DNA of 64,000 nt from Calothrix brevissima NIES-22 (GTDB lineage: Bacteria > Cyanobacteriota > Cyanobacteriia > Cyanobacteriales > Nostocaceae), in the NCBI RefSeq assembly GCF_002367995.1, contig NZ_AP018209.1, forward strand, positions 1 through 64,000, given 5' to 3'. Shown in pieces: positions 41,953-46,538 of the stretch. The notes beneath the pieces are model-generated. The model had not been told where the DNA came from, did no database searches, and was given only the letters and a program-made list of their open reading frames with translations. The stretch's first letter is position 1; every line of letters begins with the position of its first letter. Made by a program: the position numbers and the translations under genes.

Positions 41953-42063
41953 AACTTAATATTTGTTAATACCGCTTTGATACCTTTTTAAATTTTAAAT
42001 TATTCTCCATTTTTTTGGGCAAAACTTTTTTGCGTACTGTGCGAAAAAACTAATTTAGAAAAG

Positions 42064-42227
42064 TGACATGGATTTCACATGAAACTGACATGAATTTACC
42101 AAGGATTTAACATAGAAGCTATGTTAAGAAACATAGAGTTACCATGAAAATCACATGAATGTAACTTAGGATTAACAAGAAAATTACCAGAGTTTACCAT
42201 AGATTTCACATAAAACTGACATAACAC
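42064..42227. repeat. parC-like centromere: about fourteen 11-bp direct repeats
   Basis: The repeat consensus is about TNACATGRATT, spaced by 11 bp: 42064, 42075, 42086, 42097 and 42108 form one set of five. A break follows at 42119-42128. Units then continue at 42129, 42140, 42151, 42162, 42173, 42185, 42195, 42206 and 42217, with steps of 10-12 bp. The best units are TGACATGGATT, TCACATGAAAC, TGACATGAATT and TCACATGAATG. The break contains a hairpin ACATAG-AAG-CTATGT (42110-42124). It sits 49 bp before parM. Plasmid R1 parC also uses 11-bp repeats in two sets. Confidence 0.8.
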
Positions 42228-42275: not shown

Positions 42276-43394
42276 ATGAACCCATTAACACTGGCAGTAG
42301 ATCCGGGTGGTTCTTTTCTCAAATGTTTCTACACTTTGGAAAGCTTTAAACCGGAACTTATTTTGATGGAGCCGGAAGTCGCTACAGTTCCGCTAGAAAG
42401 TTTACAAGCTTACGAACAAAGTAAGGTTGGTAGTTCTTCTCCTGAAAATAGTGCTTGGATTGAATATCAGGGACACTTTCAAGCTGTTGGCTTTTTAGCT
42501 AGGAAACGCTTTAATGCAGATTTACAACTGCAACGTCGTAAGTTTGAACTGGCTTTACCTAAAGTCTTGGCGATTGTGGGAGCGATCGCAGATAAACATG
42601 ATTTACCTAATGATTCTTCTATTAGGTTAGGTATCTTACTTCCCTGGGGAGAGTACCAAGATAGAGCTTTGTTTGGGGAGTTAATTACTAAAGCACTGGC
42701 TGGTTATCGCTTTAAAGGTCATTCTAAATCCTTTGTGTTGGATACTTTCATGTGTCTGCCAGAAGGCGGCGGTATCCTTACTAGAGGCCGCGCACCAGGC
42801 TCTAGCATTAAAGACCAGACTGTAGCAGTGATTATGCTCGGATACAGAGATACTTCTATCCTGGTGATTGAACGTGGAGAAATGAGCAAAGGTAAAACTG
42901 AACCTTTGGGATTTTCCAAAATGATTGAATCTGTGATGGCGCAAACATCTGGCTTAAATTCCCATCAGCTAACTGCGGCGATTTGCAAGGCGGGACGGAA
43001 TATTAATCCCAAAGCGTTGGAGGAGTTGGCTTCTGTGGATGCTGCTTATCAAGAACATGAGCTAGCCACAATTAAAACTGCTGTCACTAATGGCAGAAAA
43101 GAATACTGGATGATGTTGTCTAATTGGTTGAAGTTGCAAGTTCCTCGTGATGTGGGTGAAGTGATTATTGGTGGGGGCACAGCTCACTATTTTCGCTCTC
43201 AACTAAATAATCTTTTCTCTAACGCTACGGTTAACTGGTGTGAGAATTTAGAATCGCAAATCACCAATAATTTTTCTGGGGTGACTGCTAAATCCCTGCA
43301 ATACCGTCTCACAGATGTCTATGGATTATTTTTCTATCTATGCGGTAGCAGTTTGAAACAGAATCAAGTGCAAGTAGGTACTGCCAATGGATAA
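42276..43394 (+). CDS. parM: ParM/StbA-like actin ATPase (plasmid segregation)
   Basis: The 372-residue protein has an actin fold of the ParM class: phosphate-1 loop AVDPGGSFLKC (about 7-17), IMLGYRDTSILVI (about 190-202) in place of phosphate-2, and the adenosine motif VIIGGGTAHY (about 294-303). Such proteins form filaments that push plasmid copies apart. It follows the 11-bp repeat array and overlaps the next gene by 8 bp, which gives the standard parC-parM-parR order. Divergent from E. coli R1 ParM in sequence. Confidence 0.82.
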   Translation: MNPLTLAVDPGGSFLKCFYTLESFKPELILMEPEVATVPLESLQAYEQSKVGSSSPENSAWIEYQGHFQAVGFLARKRFNADLQLQRRKFELALPKVLAIVGAIADKHDLPNDSSIRLGILLPWGEYQDRALFGELITKALAGYRFKGHSKSFVLDTFMCLPEGGGILTRGRAPGSSIKDQTVAVIMLGYRDTSILVIERGEMSKGKTEPLGFSKMIESVMAQTSGLNSHQLTAAICKAGRNINPKALEELASVDAAYQEHELATIKTAVTNGRKEYWMMLSNWLKLQVPRDVGEVIIGGGTAHYFRSQLNNLFSNATVNWCENLESQITNNFSGVTAKSLQYRLTDVYGLFFYLCGSSLKQNQVQVGTANG

Positions 43395-43839
43395 CCTAAT
43401 TGAGTACCGATGTCGAATTGCTATAGAAGCTCAAGAATCCAATGTCGCTCTGGTGAATTTTCTCAAAACTAAGGAGACTTTAGCTTTTACTGAGAGAGAT
43501 AAAGTTTTTTCAGCTCTTTCGGCTTATTGGCTACCTTTCGCTTTAAGAAATGCCGGATGTTCGGATTCTCAATCAAAGCAGTGTGCTAAGAACGCTATCT
43601 ATCGGTTGAAGTTGCATATTAGTTATCTGGTTGAAAGTTTTGGTCTAGATAATGAAGATTTTGTCACTCAACCCGTAAAAGCTACCGAGCCAATTTCACC
43701 AGTTAACAAAACACCAAAGGTTGATGTTGATTTGACACCATCAACTGCTAAGGCGAGTTCAGAAAATACGCCTGAACTTAATTTAGAGCAGTTGATACAT
43801 CACGAAGATGACAGCACTTTTGAAGGATTATTTAACTAA
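43387..43839 (+). CDS. parR: ParR-like adaptor protein
   Basis: The 150-residue product overlaps parM by 8 bp. Its N-terminal part (about 1-100) is helical, without a visible ribbon-helix-helix motif but basic in places (CAKNAIYRLKLH). A disordered linker (about 105-135) leads to an acidic, hydrophobic C-terminal tip, HHEDDSTFEGLFN. In known systems a ParR C-terminal peptide caps the ParM filament. The call is from order, size and this tail, not from sequence identity. Confidence 0.6.
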   Translation: MDNLIEYRCRIAIEAQESNVALVNFLKTKETLAFTERDKVFSALSAYWLPFALRNAGCSDSQSKQCAKNAIYRLKLHISYLVESFGLDNEDFVTQPVKATEPISPVNKTPKVDVDLTPSTAKASSENTPELNLEQLIHHEDDSTFEGLFN

Positions 43840-43962
43840 GTCGGAAGTAGGAAGTCGCAAGTCGGAAGTAATTAATTAAAACTCTCTACTTCCGACCTCC
43901 AAATTCCGACTTCTGGAAAAACCGTACTTCCGACTTCTGACTTTCGACTTCCGATTTCATTT
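43836..43962. repeat. Heptamer repeats (AAGTCGG/CCGACTT), inverted
   Basis: GTCGGAAGTAGGAAGTCGCA units around 43840-43870 face CTTCCGACTTCTGACTTTCG units around 43925-43955. The inverted arrangement may form a hairpin between parR and the next gene. Confidence 0.7.
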
Positions 43963-43979
43963 AATTAATAGGGGGTAAT

Positions 43980-44756
43980 ATGCCTTATACCAAAGAGGCG
44001 TTACAAAATATGTACGCTCTATCAACAGAAGATGTCAATGCATCTCTAGAAATTTGTGGATTACCTGTAGATAAACAGGAGTATGATGATGAAGAAATTG
44101 CGGCGGTTGATTTTCAACAAGCAGTTGATTTAGTCAAACAACAGAACTCTAATACGTCCACTACACCAGAAAATGATGCTCTAGAAGGTAAGAAGAAAAG
44201 GAAAACTAAACCGTTAGATACTACCGAGTTACTTGCTAAAGCTCGTGACAAAGGGGTTAAACTCACCCTGCTAGAAACTATGCAAGTATTACAAGCTTGT
44301 GGGCTATCAGAAAAGGAAGAATATTCTCAGTCTGAATGCTTACGCTTTCTCGAAGCAAGCGATTTAATTAAAAAGCAGCACAAATCTGTTGAGGAAGTGG
44401 CACAACATTTTGGGGTAACTACCGATAGCCCTACACAATTTGAGGATGTAGATACAAGTGAGCTTCTGCAAGAACTAGGAGAGACTACAGCTTTATTGGG
44501 GGAAGAGGAGCGAGAGTTAATTAGGGAAATGGTGCGACAGAAGGCTAAGGGTGATATGGCTGGGCTGCCTAAGTTGTATTTGCAATCATTAATTGAGGAG
44601 ATGAAATCGTCACAATTTCAACAAGAATGGCAGCAACTACGAGATGCTTTCAAAGCTAGGATCATGGGAAAAAAGCCAACTTCCCCAGCATTCCCACCGC
44701 AGCCACCTTTGATGAGCTTGCCACCGATATCGGAGAATGGGTCAACATCCGAATAG
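43980..44756 (+). CDS. Hypothetical protein, zero-frame product (possible frameshift gene)
   Basis: The 258-residue product is acidic and helical, with two similar modules: about 1-60 (YALSTEDVNASLEICGLP) and about 80-150 (TLLETMQVLQACGLSEKEEY), each followed by a short acidic stretch. The modules look like small HTH-type folds. From residue 233 the zero-frame end is proline-rich and short (PTSPAFPPQPPLMSL), unlike the rest. An in-phase slippery sequence covers codons 231-232, and a long -1 frame opens there. It follows parR by 140 bp. Function is unknown. Confidence 0.65.
   Translation: MPYTKEALQNMYALSTEDVNASLEICGLPVDKQEYDDEEIAAVDFQQAVDLVKQQNSNTSTTPENDALEGKKKRKTKPLDTTELLAKARDKGVKLTLLETMQVLQACGLSEKEEYSQSECLRFLEASDLIKKQHKSVEEVAQHFGVTTDSPTQFEDVDTSELLQELGETTALLGEEERELIREMVRQKAKGDMAGLPKLYLQSLIEEMKSSQFQQEWQQLRDAFKARIMGKKPTSPAFPPQPPLMSLPPISENGSTSE
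44669..44675 (+). promoter_or_regulatory. A AAA AAG slippery heptamer (candidate -1 frameshift site)
   Basis: The heptamer is in the exact X XXY YYZ phase of the zero frame (codon 232 ends at 44675). An AGGA lies 10 bp upstream, as in the dnaX stimulator. The -1 frame is open from 44660 to 45166. Confidence 0.55.
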
Positions 44757-45166
44757 ATGAGGAAAAGCGGACTATTGAGGTCAAAGCACACAAAATTATT
44801 GAGGAAAAAGCCAAAAAGAGAGCCACAGAAATAGCCTTGACCAAGCTCAATGAATCTCAGCAATGGATTGAGGTTGAACAAAAACGTTCTCAACTCAGAA
44901 GGCAGCGCTCACATGAATTGAGAGTAAATTTAATTCATTTTGCTCGTTGGCTATGTTCTGGCTGGTCTGGTTGGTTATTTTATTTAATTTGGTTTGCAAT
45001 CTTCAGTTCTTTGGGTTTCGCTTTGGGTCTTAACCTCCCTTCTGCTATTGCCTGTCGCAGTACCAAAAGTTTTTGCTACCTTTTACGATTGGATAAAGAA
45101 ACCGTGATTATCCCTAGTGATTACACTAGACAAACATCTCAAAAAAAATCCAATCGTCAACGTTAA
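44675..45166 (+). CDS. -1 frame extension: coiled coil plus membrane domain
   Basis: This reading frame follows the slippery site and gives 163 residues. It reads ANFPSIPTAATFDELATDIG, then a charged coiled coil (DEEKRTIEVKAHKIIEEKAK), then a hydrophobic segment of about 30 residues (WLFYLIWFAIFSSLGFALGL) and a short tail. The frame has no ATG or GTG before a TTG at 44837, yet its text is clearly protein-like from 44675 on. So either the fused product (about 395 residues) is made by -1 frameshifting, or an ancestral gene lost one base. A separate start at the TTG at 44837 is the weaker alternative. Confidence 0.6.
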   Translation, partial: ANFPSIPTAATFDELATDIGEWVNIRIDEEKRTIEVKAHKIIEEKAKKRATEIALTKLNESQQWIEVEQKRSQLRRQRSHELRVNLIHFARWLCSGWSGWLFYLIWFAIFSSLGFALGLNLPSAIACRSTKSFCYLLRLDKETVIIPSDYTRQTSQKKSNRQR

Positions 45167-45240: not shown

Positions 45241-45280
45241 AAAGGGAGGGTATTTTTTAACTACCCTCCCTTTATTTTAT
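45241..45280. terminator. Bidirectional terminator between convergent genes
   Basis: AAAGGGAGGGTA (45241-45252) pairs perfectly with TACCCTCCCTTT (45262-45273). T-rich DNA follows on the plus strand and A-rich DNA precedes it, so it can serve both the parMR-side genes and ardA. Confidence 0.85.
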
Positions 45281-46032
45281 TAGTGACGACTAAAAACGTA
45301 GACTTTGTTGTAACTTTCTTCTACTGAATAGTAGGAGTCAATGAACCAATCACGGGCTATTGCTGACCAATTGAGGTAGAAGCTAGGAATACCCATGTCT
45401 TCTAAGTTTTTAATCAATCCTTGTTGTTCGAGTTGATCGTAAACAAAGTCTTCTTCACTTTCGTACTCACCCCAATAATGTTCTTGAAAATCTTCTACGC
45501 TAGCCTCACTACTGTCATATTCATAATAAGCTGCATAGGCTGAACCATGCTCTGATAAAATTTGAGCAAGTTCGGCTAGTTTTTCTATGCTTTCGTATTC
45601 ACTAAGATGAATACCATACCAGTTTTGAAAATCATGTATTGCCCACTCCTCACAGGCTTCATAATTATGACAGGGTGACCAAGATAACATCCATTCAATA
45701 TCATCTTGAATGTCTGAAGCATCTTGTGTACAGTCGATCCACATTCCGTGTAAAAAGCCGTTATTGTATGCAGATAGACAGGCTACATAAATCTGTGGTG
45801 CATCATCATCCTGGCACTCACGCTCATGCTTGGGGAAGGGAAGTAAACAGCTTGCACCTTCAACTATTGGTAAGGCAACACCTGCTAAATTGATTGCTAA
45901 ATCTACTGCCCTCTGTTCTCGAATTGGACAGATTAAAACATTACCCTCAAGATGGCAGTTGTAAACTTGTTGGGCAACTAATTGAGCATCTTGTTCTGAG
46001 TGAAATATTAGAGTGTTAGAAAAGAAATTCAT
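45280..46032 (-). CDS. ardA: Antirestriction protein ArdA
   Basis: The product has 250 residues, somewhat longer than typical ArdA (about 165-180). It is strongly acidic with many Asp/Glu, and carries the family pattern PQIYVACLSAYNNGFLHGMW (about 78-97) and EEWAIHDFQNWYG (about 127-139). ArdA mimics B-form DNA and blocks type I restriction enzymes, which protects DNA entering a new host. An N-terminal extension of about 75 residues precedes the ArdA part. The convergent terminator ends it. Hairpin DNA lies in its leader. Confidence 0.85.
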   Translation of the reverse strand: MNFFSNTLIFHSEQDAQLVAQQVYNCHLEGNVLICPIREQRAVDLAINLAGVALPIVEGASCLLPFPKHERECQDDDAPQIYVACLSAYNNGFLHGMWIDCTQDASDIQDDIEWMLSWSPCHNYEACEEWAIHDFQNWYGIHLSEYESIEKLAELAQILSEHGSAYAAYYEYDSSEASVEDFQEHYWGEYESEEDFVYDQLEQQGLIKNLEDMGIPSFYLNWSAIARDWFIDSYYSVEESYNKVYVFSRH

Positions 46033-46340: not shown

Positions 46341-46538
46341 ATGACAAGAAACGATATTGCTACTCGCTTTAAATCAAAAGGAGTTGGCGTAAAATGTGAT
46401 ACTAAACCTATATCCGTGATGCTTCCGGAAGATTTAGATGCTTATGTGCGTAGCAAGCCCAATCGTTCCGAGTGGTTGCGGCGGGTTATTGCTCTTGCTG
46501 TGGCTAAGGAACAAGCGGAAGCTCAAAAGGAAGATTGA
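46341..46538 (+). CDS. Ribbon-helix-helix (CopG-type) regulator
   Basis: The 65-residue protein has the RHH pattern: strand PISVMLPEDLDAYVRSKPNR (about 23-42) and a second helix SEWLRRVIALAVAKEQ. A GGAG-like sequence (GAGAGAAAGGA) lies upstream. The two palindromes before it have the size expected for an RHH dimer-of-dimers site. It could control ardA, which is divergent, or be an antitoxin whose toxin partner has been lost. Confidence 0.8.
   Translation: MTRNDIATRFKSKGVGVKCDTKPISVMLPEDLDAYVRSKPNRSEWLRRVIALAVAKEQAEAQKED

Follow-up and report, generated by a model that had tools for sequence, protein, structure and literature searches.

A conserved candidate -1 frameshift that adds a predicted membrane anchor to the third gene of cyanobacterial ParM-type partition loci

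Behind a ParM-type actin-like gene and a small ParR-like gene, the stretch of 64,000 nucleotides of Calothrix brevissima NIES-22 analysed here (contig NZ_AP018209.1, positions 1 to 64,000; hereafter the window) carries an open reading frame, A, whose end is overlapped by a second frame, B, lying at -1 to it (Table 1). The question raised by this locus is whether A and B are joined by ribosomes that slip back one base on a slippery heptamer, are two separate genes or are the halves of a broken one, and what a joined product might do beside a partition system. A preliminary description made from the letters of the window had favoured the slip. Overall, the evidence is best explained by a frameshifted third ParMRC gene that would give a soluble A and a membrane-bound A-B serving as a tether, a reading that sequence comparison makes likely as a whole, and whose parts are held with differing confidence below.

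Table 1. Features of the partition locus and of the A/B pair in the window
Feature	Position	Strand	Basis
11-bp iteron array (about CATGAATTTAC), candidate centromere of parC type ahead of ParM	42060..42220		autocorrelation
ParM-type actin-like gene, 372 aa, CorM/FcmB relative	42276..43394	+	PDB and NCBIfam searches
ParR-like small gene, 150 aa, overlapping the ParM stop	43387..43839	+	named by position
ORF A, zero-frame product, 258 aa	43980..44756	+	ORF reading
First copy of the tandem domain of A (about 55 aa), residues 10-60	44007..44159	+	profile search
Second domain copy of A, residues 91-142, HTH-like on weak evidence	44250..44405	+	profile search
AGGA, possible internal Shine-Dalgarno-like stimulator, place not conserved	44658..44661	+	sequence
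ORF B, -1 frame	44660..45166	+	ORF reading; tblastn matches on 26 PLSDB plasmids
Slip site GGGAAAAAAG with two in-phase heptamers, G GGA AAA and A AAA AAG	44666..44675	+	sequence and alignments
Long helix predicted for B, probably a coiled coil	44699..44953	+	AlphaFold model, residues 14-98
Zero-frame stop of A, TAG	44754..44756	+	ORF reading
Predicted transmembrane helix of B	44960..45031	+	AlphaFold model, residues 101-124; hydropathy
Conserved Cys pair after the membrane helix, -1 frame residues 132 and 139	45053..45076	+	alignment

Reading frames and slip site

The A AAA AAG on which the preliminary description was built does lie in X XXY YYZ phase at 44669-44675, GGA AAA AAG being codons 230-232 of A, and is overlapped by another heptamer in phase, G GGA AAA at 44666-44672, that had gone unmentioned. 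The -1 frame opens, as had been described, after the TAG at 44657-44659 and closes with the TAA at 45164-45166; its start at 44660 stands 9 bases before the first base of A AAA AAG and 15 before the last, the latter agreeing with the earlier figure of 15. It had been said to contain no ATG or GTG before 44837, and this is correct: B in the window has no ATG, its first start-like codon is a TTG at 44837, and its first GTG follows at 45104. A slip would join 232 residues of A to the 163 encoded past it (44675-45163), which agrees with the lengths proposed earlier, 258 residues for the soluble form and about 395 for the fusion.

Homologues were drawn from several collections. In PLSDB, tblastn found A on 27 plasmids and B on 26, mainly of Nostoc. 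By profile search, A was present in 60 of the 217 genomes surveyed in the family and B in 30 of 388 genomes drawn from the order, and a class-wide draw of 388 genomes gave 14 with A and 14 with B; the genome of the window is included each time. A further search of genome contigs gave 10 loci, and in the viral contigs searched no relative of B was confirmed. The A/B pairs were read in all frames with profiles made from 13 to 14 pairs, a procedure that would have counted any single-frame A-B fusion. In the first set, B lay at -1 in all 93 distinct overlapping pairs. The final set, to which class-wide loci were added and which was de-duplicated on the first 300 bases of B, held 99 distinct pairs, and B lay at -1 in 98 of them, from plasmids, chromosomes and several families, and at +1 in one, with its own ATG at the stop of A. 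Homologues in which the two parts form one uninterrupted frame had been named beforehand as the observation to look for against a slip, and none is present among the 99. Since many pairs are closely related, the 28 protein clusters (60% identity) into which the 98 fall are the fairer unit.

Not counted among the 99 are loci without an A/B overlap (L106; L030, for the second half of its B; and L158 with L176 and L186, whose A is in two pieces), A-only copies that are cut or broken (L096, the same as L172, L103, L139, L140, L141, L152 and L181), distant A-only loci with A-type domains (L118, L119, L120, L122-L125, L142, L146, L177, L178, L180 and L187) and 11 B-only loci. Broken pairs that were counted are L030 (B in two pieces), L108, L126 and L137 (A in two pieces) and L138 (short A and B). 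In six of the 11 B-only loci, B lies at -1 to a long zero-frame ORF, and a classical heptamer is present in four of the six; two (L134 and L135) have a neighbour in another frame and three are uninformative.

Alignment of the homologues, suggested earlier as a check, bears the proposal out: the heptamer and the -1 overlap are kept while the flanks vary. A classical heptamer lies within the overlap in 93 of the 98 pairs, or in 92 by the stricter count, since the AAATTTG of L102 sits off the conserved place; at least one member has one in 25 of the 28 clusters. The identity of the heptamer varies and its place is constant in most pairs. Eighteen near-relative pairs, the window included, share GGGAAAAAAG with its run of six A, and the other pairs have GGGAAAG, AAAAAAG, GGGAAAC, GGGAAAA, GGGAAAT, AAAAAAA or TTTTTTG. 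Five of the 98 have no classical heptamer, the off-position L102 being a sixth, and the G-rich variants GGGGGAG or GGGGAAG are found close to the start of the overlap in L060, L061, L063, L109, L138 and L102.

Over the 93 pairs, the frequency per codon of any in-phase X XXY YYZ rises from 0.0045 in the part of A ahead of the overlap to 0.0270 within it. For GGGAAA[GAC] and AAAAAA[GAC], a set picked after the sites had been viewed, the rates are 0.0015 and 0.0260, and at least one such heptamer is present in the overlap of 87 of the 93 pairs against 6.0 expected from the upstream per-codon rate; 106 of them are in phase, with 1 and 20 in the other two phases. Both A_AAA_AAG and G_GGA_AAG are described as highly shift-prone in E. 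coli, and G_GGA_AAC as reported from viruses of halophilic archaea, in an excerpt of PMC5009743. Judged by this conservation of site and frame, GGGAAAAAAG is very probably the site of a programmed -1 ribosomal slip.

Moreover, the two frames of the overlap look equally constrained. In 53 nearest-neighbour comparisons, in which kinship is handled only by the single use of each neighbour pair, 106 differences are silent in frame 0 only and 101 in the -1 frame only, against 76.7 expected for each by opportunity, and 112 changes alter both frames against 138.1 expected; the one-frame-silent counts being nearly equal, neither frame appears to be free. The zero-frame tail SLPPxSENGSTS is recognisable in the 13 aligned A members. 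Beyond the overlap, A has a dN/dS-like ratio of 0.33 and B, immediately past it, one of 0.35; by this measure B is under purifying selection there.

Stimulatory elements are less uniform than the site itself. The AGGA that had been likened to that of dnaX is present in the window, 7 bases ahead of the heptamer; its place is not conserved among the pairs. Some Shine-Dalgarno-like 4-mer stands upstream in 14 of 18 near relatives, at differing positions, and an upstream Shine-Dalgarno was rejected as a general stimulator, being weak over all pairs and variable in place. A downstream stem-loop, for which RNA folding had been suggested as a check, was not found in the window by pseudoknot-free folding (z 0.75). 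Over 49 thinned loci the mean z in three folding windows was -0.32, -0.53 and -0.27 (controls -0.01 and -0.16), and z fell below -2 in 5, 6 and 4 of the 49 loci (controls 1 and 3); downstream RNA structure was likewise rejected as a general stimulator. A clade of six (L058, L059, L062, L129, L132 and L133) has a strong, invariant hairpin 6 bases past the heptamer, with no compensatory change among its six sequences.

Predicted proteins and their place in the partition locus

The -1 frame had been described as encoding a coiled coil and a hydrophobic segment that would serve as a membrane anchor, and structure prediction agrees. Modelled with AlphaFold from 11 sequences (mean pLDDT 72, pTM 0.31), B contains both helices listed in Table 1, the long one with a pLDDT of 81-92 in blocks of 10 from residue 21 on, and after them a poorly predicted tail. 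The best 19-residue hydropathy is at least 1.3 in B of 92 of 93 pairs, and at this threshold a membrane segment is found in A of 7 of 93. The cysteine pair is invariant in 14 divergent B proteins, and Cys-X4-10-Cys lies beyond the hydrophobic segment in 90 of 93. On hydropathy and model together, B very likely supplies a membrane anchor, with its cysteines probably outside the cytoplasm, on the far side of the membrane.

The part shared by both products is harder to place. Of 130 A proteins searched for the tandem domain, 128 matched, 79 of them with two copies and 49 with one. The AlphaFold model of A is helical (mean pLDDT 70, pTM 0.30), and Foldseek returned nothing for it at E 0.001 or better. 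Pfam HTH/MerR matches in relatives of A are sub-threshold; MerR_1 was reached only by distant relatives of the domain (E 0.0037 and 0.033, below its cut-off), an hhalign comparison of the domain with MerR was not significant (probability 5%), and a PDB sequence search gave weak leads at most for DNA binding. The HTH/MerR resemblance is only a lead, and DNA binding by A is a weakly supported suggestion.

Variation in A takes several forms. N-termini of different types (MPYTKE..., MYRQSE..., MYQPQE...) precede one conserved middle part, which looks like an exchange of the first domain copy. In L108, L126 and L137 (reverse complement or forward strand, about 1488-2348), A is split between the domain copies by a second -1 change, by decay or by a second slip; in the overlap of the split in L126, GGGAAAA and AAAAAAC are in phase. 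In L146, as in L125 and L142, a 483-aa ORF with strongly hydrophobic stretches adjoins a protein with a single A-type domain. Distant A-like frames in L124 (reverse complement, about 1480-2330) and L177 (1311-2458, forward strand) are followed by a hydrophobic -1 frame that is unmatched by the B profiles and has an in-phase T TTT TTG; in L118 the T TTT TTG is present and the hydrophobic segment absent. The frameshift-to-membrane trick may have been reused independently in L124 and L177.

The ParM/ParR context assigned to A/B in the preliminary description has gained support from a CorM match, a ParR-like profile and iterons. The ParM-type protein matches PDB entry 9rmi, named CorM there, at E 3.8e-13, and CBg-ParM at E 0.0048. 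It has no Pfam match, and orthologous loci carry a ParM/StbA family annotation. Its score against NCBIfam FcmB is 57.9 bits, under the cut-off of 300, and membership of the FcmB family was rejected on this ground; the genome has an FcmB of its own (C1:986698-987819, 750.8 bits), around which neither A nor B was found (stretch L151).

The ParR-like gene has no significant profile or PDB match. A profile from 12 such genes matches in 76 of 93 A/B loci, seeds included, and in 71 of 93 pairs, a count that takes in the seed loci of both profiles, A is preceded on its own strand by a ParM-like and a ParR-like gene. Among the 22 pairs without both genes, 17 have fewer than 1000 bases of sequence upstream of A; in L084, L101, L132 and L138, neither gene is present in the 1.4 to 1.9 kb ahead of A. 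L015 misses the ParR-like gene alone, because of an ambiguous base, and the fused ParR-A gene suggested by a 430-aa open frame in L015 and L077 was rejected, the ambiguous base lying at the junction.

Autocorrelation of the iteron array has maxima at 11, 22 and 33 bases (z 4.9, 3.6 and 5.7 against mononucleotide shuffles), with direct repeats spaced 65, 22 and 11, and an 11-base period is among the top three in 13 of 14 relatives examined, L006 peaking at 10. Given that these iterons lie upstream of ParM and that their period is common to relatives, the locus is taken to be of the ParMRC type, with A/B as its third gene.

Two observations concern the surroundings. The spacer between the ParR-like gene and A (43840-43975) is rich in repeats (AAGTCGGAAGTA and its inverse), fragments of which occur elsewhere in the genome; it looks like an inserted repeat element, since L073, whose ParM is 99% identical, has 11 bases there. 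Further downstream, a 65-aa ORF (46341-46538) lies beside a gene at 45280-46032 that is annotated as ArdA in relatives and has no NCBIfam match in the window; several relatives have an ORF at the place of the former, one of them annotated as a ribbon-helix-helix protein.

In the preferred reading, the majority of ribosomes would make the soluble A of 258 residues, and a fraction would slip back one base in the cell to make the A-B fusion of 395, in which the last 26 residues of A would give way to a long helix, a single membrane helix and a short tail with two cysteines. The soluble and anchored forms would co-assemble through the A residues that they have in common, their proportions being fixed by the slip, and the assembly would hold either the partition complex or the ParM filament at the membrane as a tether. 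This tethering role is put forward tentatively and falls a little short of being probable.

A frameshifted A/A-B could also serve conjugation, in the relaxosome or the mating pore, and not partition. Such a role is conceivable because a MobF relaxase adjoins many of the loci examined, divergently so in the window and several relatives, and 13 of the 27 PLSDB plasmids with A are typed as conjugative; however, another 13 are typed as non-mobilizable, and four loci of 14 kb, taken from megabase contigs in three genomes (L144, L145, L147 and L148), have ParM, the ParR-like gene and A/B with no match to the MobF of the window. Conjugation is on this evidence an unlikely function of the pair. The idea of a dead relaxase beside chromosomal copies was rejected, the translations of L143 and L150 being without a stop.

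Other origins of the two-frame arrangement

B might instead be a protein in its own right, started alone from TTG or a non-standard codon, or by coupling to the end of A. Annotation points this way: in 12 plasmid loci B is a separate hypothetical gene in eight and unlisted in four (the PLSDB gene tables being incomplete). An ATG or GTG precedes the conserved B part in 15 of the 98 -1 pairs, and an ATG, GTG or TTG in 39. In L164, from a 76% complete genome with weak matches, B is at +1 and its ATG overlaps the stop of A (AATGATCGATAA), and in L134 and L135 the ORF ahead of B is in another frame, with short overlaps; from these arrangements it follows that fusion is not universal. Most pairs, however, have no such start (no ATG or GTG in 83 of 98; no ATG, GTG or TTG in 59), and separate initiation leaves unexplained the in-phase heptamer and the -1 coding sequence that reaches back to it. 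As a general account it is very improbable. The pair in L164 (reverse complement, about 453-1860) has the appearance of a natural, unfused A and B encoded by coupled separate genes.

Slippage of RNA polymerase on the run of A, in place of the ribosome, is marginally less probable still. Suitable runs do exist, with six A in the window and 17 near relatives and seven (e.g. L088) or eight (L126) in others, but the relatives with GGGAAAG or GGGAAAC carry just three at the same place, and it is therefore ribosomal slippage that fits. Runs of 9 are those mentioned for bacterial slippage in an excerpt of PMC5009743.

The loss of one base from a single ancestral gene, or a sequence error of one base, which would leave the second half dead or misread and had been held to be the main alternative, accounts for two halves that form one unit and for a B without a start codon, but is hardly credible given 98 of 99 pairs with the same -1 arrangement, no single-frame homologue and purifying selection on B.

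Relation to known systems and significance

In phage lambda, gpG and gpGT arise at the slip site G GGA AAG. As proposed for A/B, the -1 slip falls near the end of the first frame and gives an N-terminal part with or without an extra domain, and an excerpt of PMC5009743 puts the ratio of gpG to gpGT at 30:1. The lambda proteins act in phage tail assembly and have no membrane anchor. The slip in E. coli dnaX uses a stem-loop and an upstream Shine-Dalgarno-like element, neither of which is general among A/B pairs. It shares with A/B the sequence A AAA AAG and gives, as would A/B, two forms with a common N-terminal part, gamma and tau (excerpt of PMC5009743). The dnaX slip shortens its product, whereas the A/B slip would lengthen it.

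The parC site of plasmid R1 has 11-bp repeats. ParMRC (type II) systems resemble the locus in the window in the ParM-type actin, the small gene behind it and the 11-bp iterons upstream, and differ from it in that the window has a third, probably frameshifted gene with a predicted membrane domain; ParMRC is not known to have such a gene. The actin of the window is also a relative of the FcmBC/CorM system of heterocystous cyanobacteria. In N. punctiforme, FcmC is needed for holding FcmB filaments at the membrane, according to an excerpt of PMC12645912. FcmBC, unlike the present locus, is a chromosomal shape system, and the genome has its separate FcmB.

Full-text searches of openly licensed papers found, among the matches listed, neither published frameshifting in a ParM-type operon nor a paper on CorM. 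Partition, ParM, Nostoc and Anabaena are not mentioned in the main text of the GeneTack survey PMC3711429, and the A/B cluster could be listed unnamed in its supplements.

Existing annotation misses the proposed A-B fusion in 12 plasmid loci. If the slip is real, it would be a case of conserved programmed frameshifting beyond phages, transposons and dnaX, within a plasmid partition operon. It is possible, if on balance doubtful, that a whole class of cyanobacterial ParMRC loci ties actin-driven segregation to the membrane through a third component whose soluble and anchored forms are set by frameshifting. Were this true, it would offer a ready intermediate on the way from DNA segregation to the membrane-bound FcmB/CorM that shape filamentous cyanobacteria. 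The ParM-type actins of cyanobacteria would gain a candidate membrane partner, and the origin of membrane-acting actins would become directly testable.
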